A stretch of 27,547 nucleotides of DNA from a virus: positions 1 to 27,547 of IMG/VR virus record IMGVR_UViG_3300024518_004362; one strand, 5' to 3'. A program made the translations under genes and the position numbers. Shown here one piece after another: positions 935-5,157 of this stretch. The notes under the pieces are model-generated. The model was not told the DNA's origin. It worked only from the letters and a program-made list of their open reading frames with translations, and did no database searches. Every line of letters begins with the position of its first letter. Position 1 is the first letter of the stretch.

Positions 935-1444
935 ATGGAATTAGCTAAAATCATAACAAAAGAAGATAATCCAAGATTTATAACAGATGAAAAATTAGAA
1001 AGTCTAAAAAGGTCCATTAAGTCGTTTGAAAAAATGATGGAATTAAGACCTATGGTAATAGATGAAAACAACATCTTGTTAGGTGGCAATATGCGTCATA
1101 GAGCCTTAACCGAACTTGGGTACAAAGATGTACCTCCCTCATGGATTAAGCAAGTCAAAGGGCTTACAGATGATGAAAAAAAAGAATTTATAATCAAGGA
1201 CAATGTAGGGTTTGGGGAATGGGATTGGGACATTCTGAATAATGACTGGGAAACCGTGTCTTTATTAGACTGGGGGTTAGATGTTGTTTCTTTTGTAGAC
1301 ACACCAAAAGAGGTTAGAGATTTGAGCCCACATTTGAATGTTGAGTATAAAATTATGATAACGGTAGATTCCGAATCCGACCAAGAGGAATTATATGATG
1401 AATTAATCAAAAGACAATACAGATGCCAAATTTCGACTTTGTAA
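935..1444 (+). CDS. ParB/Srx-like domain protein
   Basis: A 169-residue protein. Residues 1-70 look like a ParB/sulfiredoxin-fold domain: LAKIITKEDNPRFI at the N-terminus, then RPMVIDENNILLGGNMRHRA (residues 38-57), which holds the GG..RHRA nucleotide-binding motif. In ParB relatives this domain binds CTP or ATP and sometimes acts as a nuclease. Residues 85-115 (IKDNVGFGEWDWDIL, LLDWGLD) are typical of phage ParB-like proteins found with DNA methylases and modification enzymes. The C-terminus (VDSESDQEELYDELIKRQY) looks like a small alpha/beta add-on. No helix-turn-helix of plasmid-partition ParB is seen, so partition is unlikely. It overlaps the ATPase gene by 22 bases, so a shared function in DNA modification is inferred. 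Confidence 0.82.
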   Translation: MELAKIITKEDNPRFITDEKLESLKRSIKSFEKMMELRPMVIDENNILLGGNMRHRALTELGYKDVPPSWIKQVKGLTDDEKKEFIIKDNVGFGEWDWDILNNDWETVSLLDWGLDVVSFVDTPKEVRDLSPHLNVEYKIMITVDSESDQEELYDELIKRQYRCQISTL

Positions 1445-2124
1445 AATCAACCGACGTAAAAAACACCTTTAGAGTGAAATCCATAAAAGGAACTTTTGAT
1501 ATTGATAAGGATAAAGTAAGTCATGTATTTAAAGGGAATTTAGACATTGAAGATAAGGAATGGAACATAGGTGTAATTGTAGGGAGCTCGGGTACGGGAA
1601 AAACTTCTATAGCAAAGCAATGTTTTGGCGAATTTGACATCCATAAATATTCCAGTGGAGCAATAATTGATGATATGCCCAAGACCTCTTCGGTAAACGA
1701 TATTGCCAAGATGTTTAACAGTGTTGGTTTCGGTAGCCCCGTGTCTTGGTTGAAACCATATAATGTATTAAGTAATGGGGAAAAAATGCGAGTAGATTTG
1801 GCTCGGAGTTTAATGTCGGAAAAGGAGATTATTTTATTCGATGAATATACAAGCGTGGTGGATAGAGATGTAGCTAAGATTGGTTCTTATGCTACCCAAA
1901 AAGCGATCAGAAAAAAAGGAAAAAAGTTTATTGCCGTATCTTGTCATTTTGATATTGTCGAATGGTTAGAACCCGACTGGATTTATAACACCGACGAGGA
2001 ACGGTTTTTTTTTGTCCGAAAGAATACAAAAGACCAAAAATTGATTTACAGATATTCCACATTGTCAATAACTCAAGCGAGAAGCAAAGAATTTGGAATG
2101 CCCTTGGGAAATATCATTATTTAA
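1423..2124 (+). CDS. ABC-type ATPase, N-terminal part of ABC-GNAT protein
   Basis: This 233-residue frame encodes a complete soluble ABC ATPase domain: Walker A GSSGTGKT (54-61), signature LSNGE (116-120), Walker B IILFDE (136-141), D-loop SVVD (144-147) and switch His175. There are no membrane segments and no permease gene, so it is not a transporter. In phages and actinobacteria, as I recall, this ATPase type is often fused to a Mom-like GNAT domain. Here the GNAT lies directly after it in the -1 frame, and the switch can occur at nine T (2005-2013, codons F195-F197). After a -1 shift the product would be 368 aa. The unshifted tail, VRKNTKDQ to GNIII, looks non-homologous. The start overlaps the ParB-like gene. 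Confidence 0.85.
   Translation: MPNFDFVKSTDVKNTFRVKSIKGTFDIDKDKVSHVFKGNLDIEDKEWNIGVIVGSSGTGKTSIAKQCFGEFDIHKYSSGAIIDDMPKTSSVNDIAKMFNSVGFGSPVSWLKPYNVLSNGEKMRVDLARSLMSEKEIILFDEYTSVVDRDVAKIGSYATQKAIRKKGKKFIAVSCHFDIVEWLEPDWIYNTDEERFFFVRKNTKDQKLIYRYSTLSITQARSKEFGMPLGNIII
2005..2013 (+). other. nine-T slippery run joining ATPase and GNAT frames
   Basis: Nine T in a row cover three in-frame TTT codons of the ATPase. T TTT TTT is a perfect -1 slippery heptamer. A -1 shift (or one extra T in the RNA) leads into a frame open from 1989 to 2528 that encodes the rest of the GNAT. A homopolymer miscall (9 for 10) would look the same. Confidence 0.7.
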
Positions 2125-2156
2125 GTGATACTTTTAATAAGGCGGCAGGAATTTTT

Positions 2157-2528
2157 GTGATTTATGATGATAATGATATTCCGATTGCGATGTTTAGTTA
2201 TTTGCATTTTCCTCACCCGAAATCCAAGAATATAAAAATGGGACATAGGACGGTGATCAATCCTAATTATCAAGGGATCGGAATTGGGAATAGGTTAATT
2301 GAGTTTGGAGCAAAGGATTTACTGAAAAAAGGGTTCAGATATTTAGCCACTACCTCTAGCCCTTCGATAATAGCATATAGAAAGCAAAGTGATAAATGGA
2401 AATGCACCAGAAAGGGATATATTGGAAAGTTGGGAAAGACTTCAAAAATAGCAATGGCTAAATCCTCAAGTCGATACACAACCTCATGGGAATTTATAAA
2501 TAACAACAATGAAAACAAAGAAAGCTAA
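2157..2528 (+). CDS. Mom-like GNAT acetyltransferase (N-terminus lies upstream in same frame)
   Basis: The frame shows the GNAT acetyl-CoA loop: HRTVINPNYQGIGIGNRLIE fits motif A with Q-G-I-G-I-G. The end, SSRYTTSWEFI, resembles the C-terminus of the Mom-like family, whose Mu member converts adenine to a carbamoylmethyl (acetamido) form to block restriction. GTG 2157 is the first usable start, but the same frame is open back to 1989. It encodes RPKIDLQIF and then WNALGKYHYLSDTFNKAAG (about 2088-2144), a recognisable family N-terminus that includes HYLS. No ATG, GTG or TTG occurs between 1989 and 2157, so this part is made only by shifting from the ATPase frame at 2005-2013. A short stand-alone product from GTG would lack it. 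DNA modification is inferred from family and context. Confidence 0.75.
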   Translation: MIYDDNDIPIAMFSYLHFPHPKSKNIKMGHRTVINPNYQGIGIGNRLIEFGAKDLLKKGFRYLATTSSPSIIAYRKQSDKWKCTRKGYIGKLGKTSKIAMAKSSSRYTTSWEFINNNNENKES

Positions 2529-3180
2529 CAAGATAATTGGAGCCATAGATTCAGATAAATTCTATATAGTTACGGCAGATGATAAAATAAAGAACATCTT
2601 ACCTTTGCCTATAATAACTTTAAGTTCTGGAACTTGTCATATCAATCCAAAAAATGACATAATTGCAGCACATGGAATTAATGCATTGAGTGTAGCCGAA
2701 TATGTAATCGAAAATATACTCTTTTTATTAAAACAAAGAAAAGGGCATAACAGATCATTCAGTGGCTTTAATCTTAATGAGTACACGTTCTGTCTAATAG
2801 GGTACGGAAGTATCAACAGAAGGCTTGAAAACATACTTAAAGCGTTTGATTGCAGGGTGGTAGTAGTGCAAAAAGTTACAGATCAGAAATTTATGTTTGA
2901 AAAGAAGGATATTTTAATTCTTGGATGCGCTCTAAATAAAGACACAAAGGATTTCCATAAGCGAATAATAACCAACCCTCATATGGTTGTGAATATTTCA
3001 AGGGATGAAGTGTTTCCAATAATGGAATTGAGAAAAACGGGTTGCTTGATCATTAGTGATAATTCTAAATTTGTAAGCAAAACAAAAAAACAAGTTCTAA
3101 CCAATCATATTGCAGGGCGAACCAAGACAGTAAAAAAGCAATTAAAAAAACATGTTAAAAAAATTATTGAATCGGAATAA
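2509..3180 (+). CDS. D-2-hydroxyacid dehydrogenase-like Rossmann protein
   Basis: A 223-residue protein with the order of motifs of D-isomer-specific 2-hydroxyacid dehydrogenases. Residues 58-75 (NALSVAEYVIENILFLLK) match the helix before the NAD domain; 97-105 (IGYGSINRR) is the NAD-binding glycine loop; 134-142 (DILILGCAL) and 160-165 (VVNISR) match later strands; TNHIAG (198-203) carries the catalytic His. Catalytic Arg165 and His200 are present, but the usual acidic residue (a D..E.EP segment) between them is missing, and the protein is about 100 residues shorter than typical 310-330 aa enzymes. It may have altered chemistry, or bind NAD without classic dehydrogenase activity. It overlaps the GNAT gene by 20 bases, so it probably belongs to the modification cassette. 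Such a gene is unusual in a phage. Confidence 0.75.
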   Translation: MKTKKANKIIGAIDSDKFYIVTADDKIKNILPLPIITLSSGTCHINPKNDIIAAHGINALSVAEYVIENILFLLKQRKGHNRSFSGFNLNEYTFCLIGYGSINRRLENILKAFDCRVVVVQKVTDQKFMFEKKDILILGCALNKDTKDFHKRIITNPHMVVNISRDEVFPIMELRKTGCLIISDNSKFVSKTKKQVLTNHIAGRTKTVKKQLKKHVKKIIESE

Positions 3181-3538
3181 ATTCATATTTATAGATAAAA
3201 GGAAAAAAGAAAGTTGTGTGCTTATCTCGGCAGGGGCAGGAATAGGAATGGCATGCATGGATATATTAAATTACAATGTCTATTTTAATGAGTACAACAA
3301 CATCAAACAAAACAAAAAAGATATAGACATAATTACCAATACACATAAGACCATTTACATATTATGGTTATCGATCACTAAAGCAAGTGAGGTAATAGAA
3401 TTTTTGACAATAAAAAACGGCACCCCAAAAAATGCATTTGTTTATTTAAGAGGGAACGCGACAGAAGATGAAAAAAAAATAATTTCAGAGTTGGGATATA
3501 TTGTGGTATCTTCGCTTAAAGTATTAGAAAAGATATAA
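3152..3538 (+). CDS. unknown protein with glycine-rich loop, 128 aa
   Basis: The frame overlaps the end of the dehydrogenase-like gene by 29 bases and ends at a hairpin. The N-terminal half has a hydrophobic strand and glycine loop (CVLISAGAGIGMACMDIL) that looks like a nucleotide- or cofactor-binding turn. The second half alternates strands and helices (KTIYILWLSITKASEVIEFL, NAFVYLRG, ELGYIVVSS), consistent with a Rossmann-like alpha/beta fold. It is lysine-rich and A-rich at the DNA level, like its upstream neighbour. I do not recognise the family. Its position as last gene of the cassette suggests a role alongside the dehydrogenase-like protein. Confidence 0.6.
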   Translation: MLKKLLNRNKFIFIDKRKKESCVLISAGAGIGMACMDILNYNVYFNEYNNIKQNKKDIDIITNTHKTIYILWLSITKASEVIEFLTIKNGTPKNAFVYLRGNATEDEKKIISELGYIVVSSLKVLEKI

Positions 3539-3635: not shown

Positions 3636-3998
3636 ATGTTAGATAAAGATTCTAAACGAACTGAACGGAATAAAAAAGCTATGTTGGAAGCCCTTGAGAG
3701 AACATTGGGGGTAGTTACGTCCGCAGCTAAAAGCATAGGAGTAGGAAGGACTCAATTTTACACTTGGATAAAAGAGGATGAAGAATTTGAGAAGGAAGTT
3801 CGGGATATTGAAAACATCGCTTTGGATTTTGCAGAAAGCCAATTACATAAACAGATCAAAGATGGTGGAACCGCTGCAACCATTTTCTATCTAAAAACCA
3901 AAGGAAAAAAGCGTGGTTATGTCGAGCGAACGGAAACAATAGTAGCGGCAAAAGTCAACCTAGATAATGCAGACCTTCCCGATTGGTTTAATGATTGA
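3636..3998 (+). CDS. terminase small subunit
   Basis: A 120-residue protein with a helix-turn-helix of the terminase small subunit type: VVTSAAKSIGVGRTQFYTWI (residues about 27-46), followed by the acidic helix KEDEEFEKEVRDIENIALDF and a second helix (AESQLHKQIKDGG, AATIFYLKTKGKKRGY). It would recognise the packaging site on the phage DNA and recruit the large subunit. It overlaps the large-subunit gene by 8 bases if that starts at 3991. The length is normal for the family. A T/A-rich leader precedes the ATG, after the hairpin at 3544-3616. Confidence 0.88.
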   Translation: MLDKDSKRTERNKKAMLEALERTLGVVTSAAKSIGVGRTQFYTWIKEDEEFEKEVRDIENIALDFAESQLHKQIKDGGTAATIFYLKTKGKKRGYVERTETIVAAKVNLDNADLPDWFND

Positions 3999-5157
3999 AT
4001 ATAAACATCCAAATTTTGAATTTCTCAAAGAAAATGTACCCAAACAAAGGGTCACATTATTGCAAGGTTCTACCCGATCAATGAAAACATGGGATACAAT
4101 CTACTATATCATATACTTATGCAAAAAGCACAAGGGAATGGAAATTGATATTGTTAGAGATACATACACCGCATTAAAGGCAACCGTATGGAAAGATTTC
4201 AAAGCGGTTCTTTTGGCTCATGGGTTATATGATGTAGACAATCACAACAAATCCGATCATATTTATTTATTAAATGATAACGTCATATCCTACTATGGTG
4301 CAGATGATCCCGATAAGATTCATGGGCGATCAAGGGATATACTTTGGTGCAATGAAGCCCATCAACTAAAAAAGGAAACTATTGATCAGTTATTTCCTAG
4401 AACCCGATCAAGAATAATAGGAGATTATAACCCTGCTTTGGGGCTTGATCACTGGCTAGACCCGTACATAGAAAAGTTTCCACCATTGATAACAACATAT
4501 TTAGATAATCCATATTTAACCAAATCTCAAGTAGAAGACATTGAAAGCAGAAAAGGAGATAAATATTGGTGGGCGGTATACGGTACGGGTCAGCGATCGG
4601 TAAGGGCAGGGGTAGTATTTCAGAACTGGGAGATAGGATCGTTTGATGAAGACATATTTACCGTTGGCTACGGGCAAGATTTTGGGTTCAATCCCGACCC
4701 AACTACATTAGTGAAGGTTGCAGTTGATAAACAGAATAAAAAAGTTTATATAGATGAACAATTCTATAATGCCAATGAACTAAAAACCGAAGAGATATAT
4801 CAAATGAATAAATCTCATATTGATAATCCAAATTCATTAATTGTTGCAGATTCAGCGGAGCCCAGATTGATCACTGAAGTAAATGAGAAAGGATTAAATA
4901 TCATAAGGGCTAAAAAGGGTGCAGGGTCAGTACTTTACGGAATAACAAAATTGAATGAATATCAAATGATCGTTACACCCGAATCCAAAAACACAATTAA
5001 GGAACTTTCTAAGTATGTTTGGAATAATAAGAAGGCAGGGATTCCCATCGATAAACATAACCATATAATTGATGCGATCAGATATATATTTACCAACTTG
5101 ATAGGGGAGGAAAATCAAATATTCCAATACGGTCATGGGCAGGATTATTTGATATAG
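3991..5157 (+). CDS. terL: terminase large subunit
   Basis: This is the ATP-driven DNA packaging motor and nuclease. The ATPase part has Walker A GSTRSMKT (residues 26-33, the GSTRS form frequent in Bacteroidetes phages) and Walker B DILWCNEAHQL (about 108-118), where Glu is the likely catalytic residue. The RNase-H-like nuclease part shows YGQDFGFNPDPT (first Asp), LIVADSAEPRL (second Asp) and DKHNHIIDAIRY (third acidic site). The length (388 aa) is slightly short but complete. I chose ATG 3991 because it overlaps the small-subunit stop by only 8 bases (ATGATTGA); an in-frame ATG at 3967 would add eight residues. Confidence 0.94.
   Translation: MIEYKHPNFEFLKENVPKQRVTLLQGSTRSMKTWDTIYYIIYLCKKHKGMEIDIVRDTYTALKATVWKDFKAVLLAHGLYDVDNHNKSDHIYLLNDNVISYYGADDPDKIHGRSRDILWCNEAHQLKKETIDQLFPRTRSRIIGDYNPALGLDHWLDPYIEKFPPLITTYLDNPYLTKSQVEDIESRKGDKYWWAVYGTGQRSVRAGVVFQNWEIGSFDEDIFTVGYGQDFGFNPDPTTLVKVAVDKQNKKVYIDEQFYNANELKTEEIYQMNKSHIDNPNSLIVADSAEPRLITEVNEKGLNIIRAKKGAGSVLYGITKLNEYQMIVTPESKNTIKELSKYVWNNKKAGIPIDKHNHIIDAIRYIFTNLIGEENQIFQYGHGQDYLI

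Follow-up and report, generated by a model that had tools for sequence, protein, structure and literature searches.

The ATPase-GNAT Junction of the Window

The DNA analyzed here, called the window throughout, is a linear virus record of 27,547 bases (IMGVR_UViG_3300024518_004362) in which five plus-strand open reading frames (ORFs) lie at positions 935–3538, just upstream of the terminase genes, as an earlier note on this DNA had described. Three of them encode a ParB/Srx-like protein, a soluble ABC ATPase and a GNAT domain, and we consider it likely that these form a core in which the GNAT is the C-terminal half of a recoded ATPase product, one gene giving two proteins, and which serves to mark DNA. 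The earlier note had counted the GNAT as a gene of its own, called from 2157 to 2528 (+). Membership in the GNAT family held (PF00583, 5.2e-7), while the separate gene did not. The open frame carrying the domain spans 1989..2528 (+) and its homology starts at about base 2022, in a frame that is -1 relative to the ATPase, with no ATG, GTG or TTG until 2157, a position 45 codons into the homology and past the conserved KYHYLS motif. The 357-position profile PHROG_11143 matches the ATPase (1423..2124, +; 1e-63) with its positions 6–195 and the GNAT with its positions 197–355 (6e-22). Since this profile spans both domains, they are one protein in other phages.

A run of nine T (T9) at 2005..2013 (+), in the context CGG TTT TTT TTT GTC, contains the heptamer T_TTT_TTT (2007–2013) and is a predicted -1 slippage site. 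From 2014 to 2124 (+) two frames overlap: the ATPase frame carries the tail, and the -1 frame carries the beginning of the GNAT. Read without a slip, the ATPase product would have 233 amino acids (aa) and end in a tail of 36 residues that starts at base 2014. With a -1 slip at T9, the ATPase part (1423–2013) would be joined to the GNAT in a product of about 368 aa, a predicted size that matches the complete in-frame fusions of relatives (351–376 aa). The GNAT of the window is thus not a separate gene from 2157, and is predicted to form the C-terminal half of a protein made by recoding. Structure downstream of the junction had a z score of -1.31.

Reading Frames Among Relatives

Using the window ATPase, 80 viral loci were fetched, and in all 81 loci of this first set, window included, a GNAT was found behind the ATPase (in frame in 46 and in the -1 frame in 35). 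Named phages, bacterial genome contigs and a second viral scan were then added to reach 183 loci, of which 154 were unique and had both domains, 27 duplicates as well as L106 and L155 (no GNAT at the contig end) being removed before the classes were counted. The GNAT was in frame with the ATPase in 105 of the 154 loci, in the -1 frame in 46 and in the +1 frame in three, proportions that are not population estimates because the viral loci were picked by similarity to the window ATPase, to its family or to two named phages. The 105 in-frame loci include Tenacibaculum phage pT24, which has a single stop codon within its in-frame GNAT (L087:4736-4738) and is annotated as having two ABC genes at this place. 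The -1 form was present in the complete chromosome of Alicyclobacillus sp. ALC3 (junction CGT TTT TTT GGA) and in named isolate phages (Lactococcus P335, Oenococcus unk162 and Streptococcus phages), and is therefore not only a metagenome artefact. In Streptococcus phage Javan420, the GNAT frame has a second break (L094:3240-3282) besides the -1 junction, and this copy may be decaying. On an ATPase tree from which the junction was excluded, parsimony counts 15 changes of frame state, and well-supported branches require at least four.

Further copies and distant relatives were also seen. A second GNAT stands right behind the fusion in a Treponema contig (L101:4400-4876) and a second ATPase-GNAT copy lies nearby in L192 (3561-4556). 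A total of 868 plasmid records matched the ATPase, and enterobacterial plasmid records of about 105–112 kb (H44-H55) carry distant ATPase relatives (approximately 25% identity) and look like SSU5-type phage-plasmids.

Predicted Recoding Signals at the Junction

An X_XXY_YYZ heptamer, read in the ATPase frame and placed in the zone where both frames are open, was observed in 40 of the 46 -1 loci, compared with 180 of 2,380 (7.6%) equal-length segments taken elsewhere in the same genes. Nearly all of these heptamers (37 of 40) are of the T_TTT_TTN or A_AAA_AAN type. At the level of clusters (70% ATPase identity), the heptamer was found in 22 of 26; the cluster-based recount, which adds L230, L232 and L254 and follows a different trimming rule, gives 38 of 45 loci. 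The T run has nine bases in 11 of the -1 loci and seven in eight others, and a single relative (L041, in frame) has T10. Moreover, Lys-Lys at the junction is coded AAAAAA in 26 of 27 cases in this class versus 28 of 60 elsewhere.

Among the in-frame fusions, the junction reads CAA AAA AAA AAT in 84 of 104 loci, and a -1 slip would hit an immediate stop in 83 of them. Lys-Lys at the fused junctions is always AAAAAA (84 of 84, versus 65 of 106 elsewhere in the genes), and all three loci of the +1 class carry A11. The run-less fused set, which includes two more subfamilies fetched with the Gordonia phages Mariokart and Jace, has another kind of signal. A Shine-Dalgarno (SD)-like sequence (AGGGGG, GGGAGG, TGGAGG and similar), a 3-base spacer and an in-frame CTT or GTT were present at 59 of its 78 unique junctions and in 31 of 42 clusters at 70% identity. 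The same pattern occurs seven times in the 13,728 codons of the ATPase parts, which leads to 0.4 expected at 78 junctions. The arrangement has the layout of the +1 shift site of release factor 2 (RF2), as given in the accessible text of PMC5009743. The likeness covers the SD-like GG_GGG or GG_AGG, the spacer and the CTT shift codon (CTT_T in 25 and CTT_C in 20 of the 59 sites). In contrast with the RF2 site, the shift codon is not followed by an in-frame stop, reading in frame gives the longer product and GTT takes the place of CTT in 13. This RF2-like site belongs to the relatives and is absent from the window itself.

Dual Coding of the Tail Frame

The tail frame lies at +1 to the GNAT and is also where an RF2-like shift would lead. 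Its openness was scored up to the conserved HYL motif and compared with an expectation in which codons were redrawn synonymously. Overall, it was open in 203 of 204 cases against about 106 expected, that is, 81 of 81 in the A10 type (38.8 expected), 78 of 78 in the run-less fused set (47.6) and 44 of 45 in the -1 class (19.4). In the same order, a control frame was open in 0, 18 and 3 cases versus 0.4, 26.3 and 2.7 expected, and the tail frame was open in 3 of 3, 42 of 42 and 25 of 26 clusters at 70% identity. Codon choice follows the same line: in the A10 group, Ile is written ATA in none of 74 codons before A or G and in 81 of 147 before C or T, and in the -1 class in one of 47 before A or G. 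Because the tail frame stays open in fused genes too, a product entering it appears to be under selection even where the fusion reads in frame. From these sequence patterns, we conclude that nearly all family members probably make two proteins, an ATPase with a short tail and an ATPase-GNAT.

The relatives would keep both products by -1 shifts at A9 or short T runs, by A10 runs or, in other in-frame fusions, by RF2-like AGGGGG-NNN-CTT +1 sites. The ATPase and its ParB-like partner would load or move on phage DNA, the GNAT arm, carried by some ATPase subunits only, would acylate a nucleobase, and the mark would protect the phage DNA. Several observations weigh against this two-product model. 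No heptamer was found in six of the 46 -1 loci (four Streptococcus or Lactococcus phages, Thomasclavelia TR-TP1 and L124) and those of L082, L104 and L107 are of weaker types, while a stimulatory hairpin shared by the class was not found downstream of 41 junctions (mean z -0.32). The RF2-like site is missing from 19 of the 78 run-less fused junctions, and the 81 unique long-run (A10) junctions form only three clusters at 70% ATPase identity, so the counts of this group are not independent. In addition, a T9 in a single contig can result from an error of sequencing or assembly, and the tail could have no function despite its open frame.

Possible Routes to a Second Product

At the T9 of the window, a ribosomal -1 shift and polymerase slippage are both possible routes. 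The second product of the family might arise from RNA polymerase slippage at T9 or A9–A11, with mRNAs gaining or losing one base, and not from ribosomal frameshifting, a reading that we rate somewhat below even odds. Run lengths of 9, 10 and 11 track frames -1, 0 and +1 in many relatives, a rule that five A10 loci of the -1 class break. Fused A10 genes would need a shift of the opposite sense from that of the -1 genes to enter the tail frame, runs of eight or more come without downstream structure (mean z 0.09, n = 26), and Thermus dnaX provides a precedent in the accessible text of PMC5009743. However, 11 of the -1 loci (including L099, in a complete chromosome) have runs of only 6–7 T, which are short for such slippage and tend to have a hairpin behind them (mean z -1.30, n = 11, p 0.021, in a post hoc comparison uncorrected for kinship), and the RF2-like class is without any run.

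It is improbable that the GNAT of the -1 class is made separately, by termination-reinitiation or from a non-standard start in the overlap, with no fusion formed. Translational coupling is common in ABC transporter gene pairs (PMC3711429, in the portion available, where the ATPase-GNAT family was not found named), and 24 of the 41 -1 loci with a recognized HYL motif have an upstream ATG, GTG or TTG in the GNAT frame, many just 5 codons off. Nonetheless, the remaining 17, including the window, have no upstream start, the fused form predominates (105 of 154), and coupling leaves the heptamers, the codon bias and the alternative frame kept open in fused genes without an explanation. Finally, an indel introduced in the homopolymer during sequencing or assembly, the real gene being an ordinary in-frame fusion, is very hard to credit: the T9 is known from one metagenomic contig and L041 has T10 in frame, yet the family holds 11 T9 and eight T7 loci of the -1 class against that one T10, complete-chromosome and isolate-phage examples, and a tail frame that stays open family-wide.

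Predicted Function of the Core

The identities given to the first two proteins in the earlier note were confirmed. The ParB/Srx-like ORF (935..1444, +; 169 aa) shares its last 22 bases with the beginning of the ATPase ORF and matches PHROG_620 (6e-21) and PHROG_498 (ParB-DNA methyltransferase; 9e-21), the PF02195 match (0.0004) being under the curated cut-off. Its similarity is to the N-terminal region of DNA methyltransferases of phages (PHROG_498), and in 147 of 153 loci the gene immediately before the ATPase encodes a ParB. Isolates that carry the core include Lactococcus P335, Nonlabens P12024S and Leptospira biflexa phage LE4. The ATPase (PF00005, 7.9e-10) is a soluble domain of about 200 aa without a membrane domain, in which Walker A, the LSNGEK-type signature, Walker B and the His loop are invariant columns across 16 sequences. 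A search of a defense library returned generic ATPase matches only. As deposited, L082, L083, L090 and L094 have the ATPase annotated as a transporter of iron siderophores or oligopeptides, and three of these four have the ParB-like protein annotated as a DNA modification methylase.

A GNAT coupled with an ABC ATPase has been predicted to carry out an uncharacterized nucleobase acyl modification, with pT24 named, in the accessible part of PMC7824862, which cites Iyer et al. (2013) for this prediction. DNA is taken as the substrate because of this published inference and of the gene context, kinship to Mom being undetectable. The GNAT had been called Mom-like in the earlier note, a label that was dropped: hhalign of 27 GNATs against Mu Mom gave a probability of 0.8% (E 0.071). 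The proposal of a DNA modification system was otherwise supported, at the level of a prediction, for the ATPase-GNAT pair with its upstream ParB, and not for a unit of five genes. GNATs act mostly on amines of proteins and small molecules, which counts for another substrate, as do the PDB profile matches of the GNAT, which are protein and amine acetyltransferases. Against the DNA-marking model, the cassette could then acylate a host or phage protein, for instance a defense component. We hold this to be doubtful, since the ParB-like partner is of a kind fused to phage DNA methyltransferases (PHROG_498) and the published prediction (PMC7824862, as far as its accessible part goes) is of nucleobase modification.

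Other genes were seen behind the GNAT of individual relatives. Genes with an ASCH domain, a relative of the EVE-type domains, which bind modified bases, were found in L021 (2259-2576), L082 (4151-4531) and L090 (3617-3985). In L124 (5125-5964), a radical SAM gene (NCBIfam rSAM_PA0069, 2e-15, under the cut-off) starts right after the GNAT stop and is a possible tailoring enzyme.

The Slot Behind the GNAT

Two ORFs follow the GNAT in the window. The first (2509..3180, +) encodes a partial D-2-hydroxyacid-dehydrogenase-like protein of 223 aa, shorter than the three best PDB chains (290–381 aa). PF02826 matches it with 29.2 bits (cut-off 25.1) over residues 77-151 only. An intact NAD-binding motif is GxGxxG, whereas here it reads GYGSIN, the third Gly missing. 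The dehydrogenase-like assignment of the earlier note is therefore kept for a partial domain, a full-length catalytic domain and an intact motif being absent. The second, ORF5 (3152..3538, +; 128 aa), is without a recognized family: it had no Pfam or PHROG match and one NCBIfam match far under the cut-off. The GNAT and dehydrogenase-like frames overlap, as do those of the dehydrogenase-like protein and ORF5, and of the ParB and the ATPase. Single-sequence structure models were too poor for use (predicted local distance difference test 42.5 for ORF5 and 35.0 for the dehydrogenase-like protein).

Both genes were seen in the window only (1 of 154 loci each). The idea of a conserved five-gene cassette did not survive, as neither gene accompanied the GNAT and ATPase in any of the 153 other loci, an outcome that the earlier note had itself named as refuting its reading. 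Relatives of the two were also not found in close-relative scans of viral contigs or by tblastn in 50,697 phage records, nor were relatives of ORF5 in three bacterial genomes.

The same position is occupied differently elsewhere. The two largest clusters of genes next to the GNAT (50 and 35 of 142 loci) are DUF5681-like and, by our own reading, terminase-small-subunit-like. In the 42 unique Mariokart-like loci, the next gene is a Formyl_trans_N gene in 35, none in five, and two loci were too short. The 35 unique Jace-like loci have PanD with a CoA-transferase III (10), the CoA-transferase alone (4), a formyltransferase (1) or none (18), and two were too short. The PanD of this slot retains its conserved GS processing site. 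These findings suggest that the slot behind the GNAT supplies acyl donors. The broader idea of the earlier note, that the modifying group is provided or completed by a downstream gene, gains support from these two subfamilies (formyltransferase in 35 of 42, CoA-transferase in 14 of 35). Profiles built from the slot genes (formyltransferase, CoA-transferase and PanD) matched neither window protein.

The dehydrogenase-like gene and ORF5 would accordingly be private additions, placed where two other subfamilies have likely donor enzymes. A single pathway of all five genes, with a new modifying group produced by the dehydrogenase-like protein and ORF5, seems rather unlikely to us. The overlapping same-strand frames and the likely donor enzymes in the same slot speak for it; the absence of both genes from the other loci, the short protein with its GYGSIN motif and the unusable structure models speak against it. 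On a broader view, which we consider less likely than not, the family would be a modular DNA-acylation platform in which three interchangeable recoding signals set the mix of free and GNAT-armed ATPase, and the downstream slot dictates the acyl group (formyltransferase-dependent; beta-alanyl through PanD and CoA-transferase; in the window, through the dehydrogenase-like protein and ORF5).

Downstream of the cassette lie the terminase small subunit (3636-3998) and then the large subunit (3967-5157). Further on, five large ORFs (271–716 aa) between 8691 and 17042 had no PHROG match at 1e-4. No near DNA relative of the window was found in the phage collection.

Relation to Known Systems and Significance

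Like Mu Mom, the window's GNAT is predicted to be a GNAT-fold acyltransferase that marks phage DNA. Mom is not known to have an ATPase or ParB partner. No sequence relation between the two was detectable, and control would here go via the reading frame, while the synthesis of Mom is controlled translationally by Com, according to the accessible part of PMC6483171. The pT24 system of PMC7824862 has the same domain pair, adjacent or fused, and pT24 itself was recovered as a relative; recoding, a tail product and swappable slot genes are not mentioned in the available part of that paper. Another resemblance is to dnaX, in which one gene gives two products that share an N-terminal ATPase through slippage at A_AAA_AAG-type sites. 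Across dnaX genes (E. coli, 'reversed' forms and Thermus), both orientations of recoding as well as polymerase slippage are known (PMC5009743, accessible text). The gene is a different one, however, and in the present family a catalytic GNAT forms the alternative C-terminus and three kinds of signal are found. By title and abstract, no report of recoding of the ATPase-GNAT gene was found in the open-licence literature searched.

The predicted ATPase-GNAT system is thus the known part of these results, and the unexpected part is the apparent recoding of the gene throughout the family, through three or more kinds of signal, together with a two-frame overlap that seems to be selected. A predicted modification enzyme was previously taken for an ordinary fusion or for two genes, and most members of its family now look recoded with two products. 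This would account for questionable gene labels in phages of Lactococcus, Streptococcus and Oenococcus, and the predicted system becomes testable through the ratio of its products and the partners in the ATPase dimer. In this one gene family, -1 slippage, homopolymer slippage and RF2-like +1 shifting would substitute for each other. The donor-enzyme slot would also lead to mass predictions for new bases, such as approximately +71.04 Da (beta-alanyl) in Jace-like phages.

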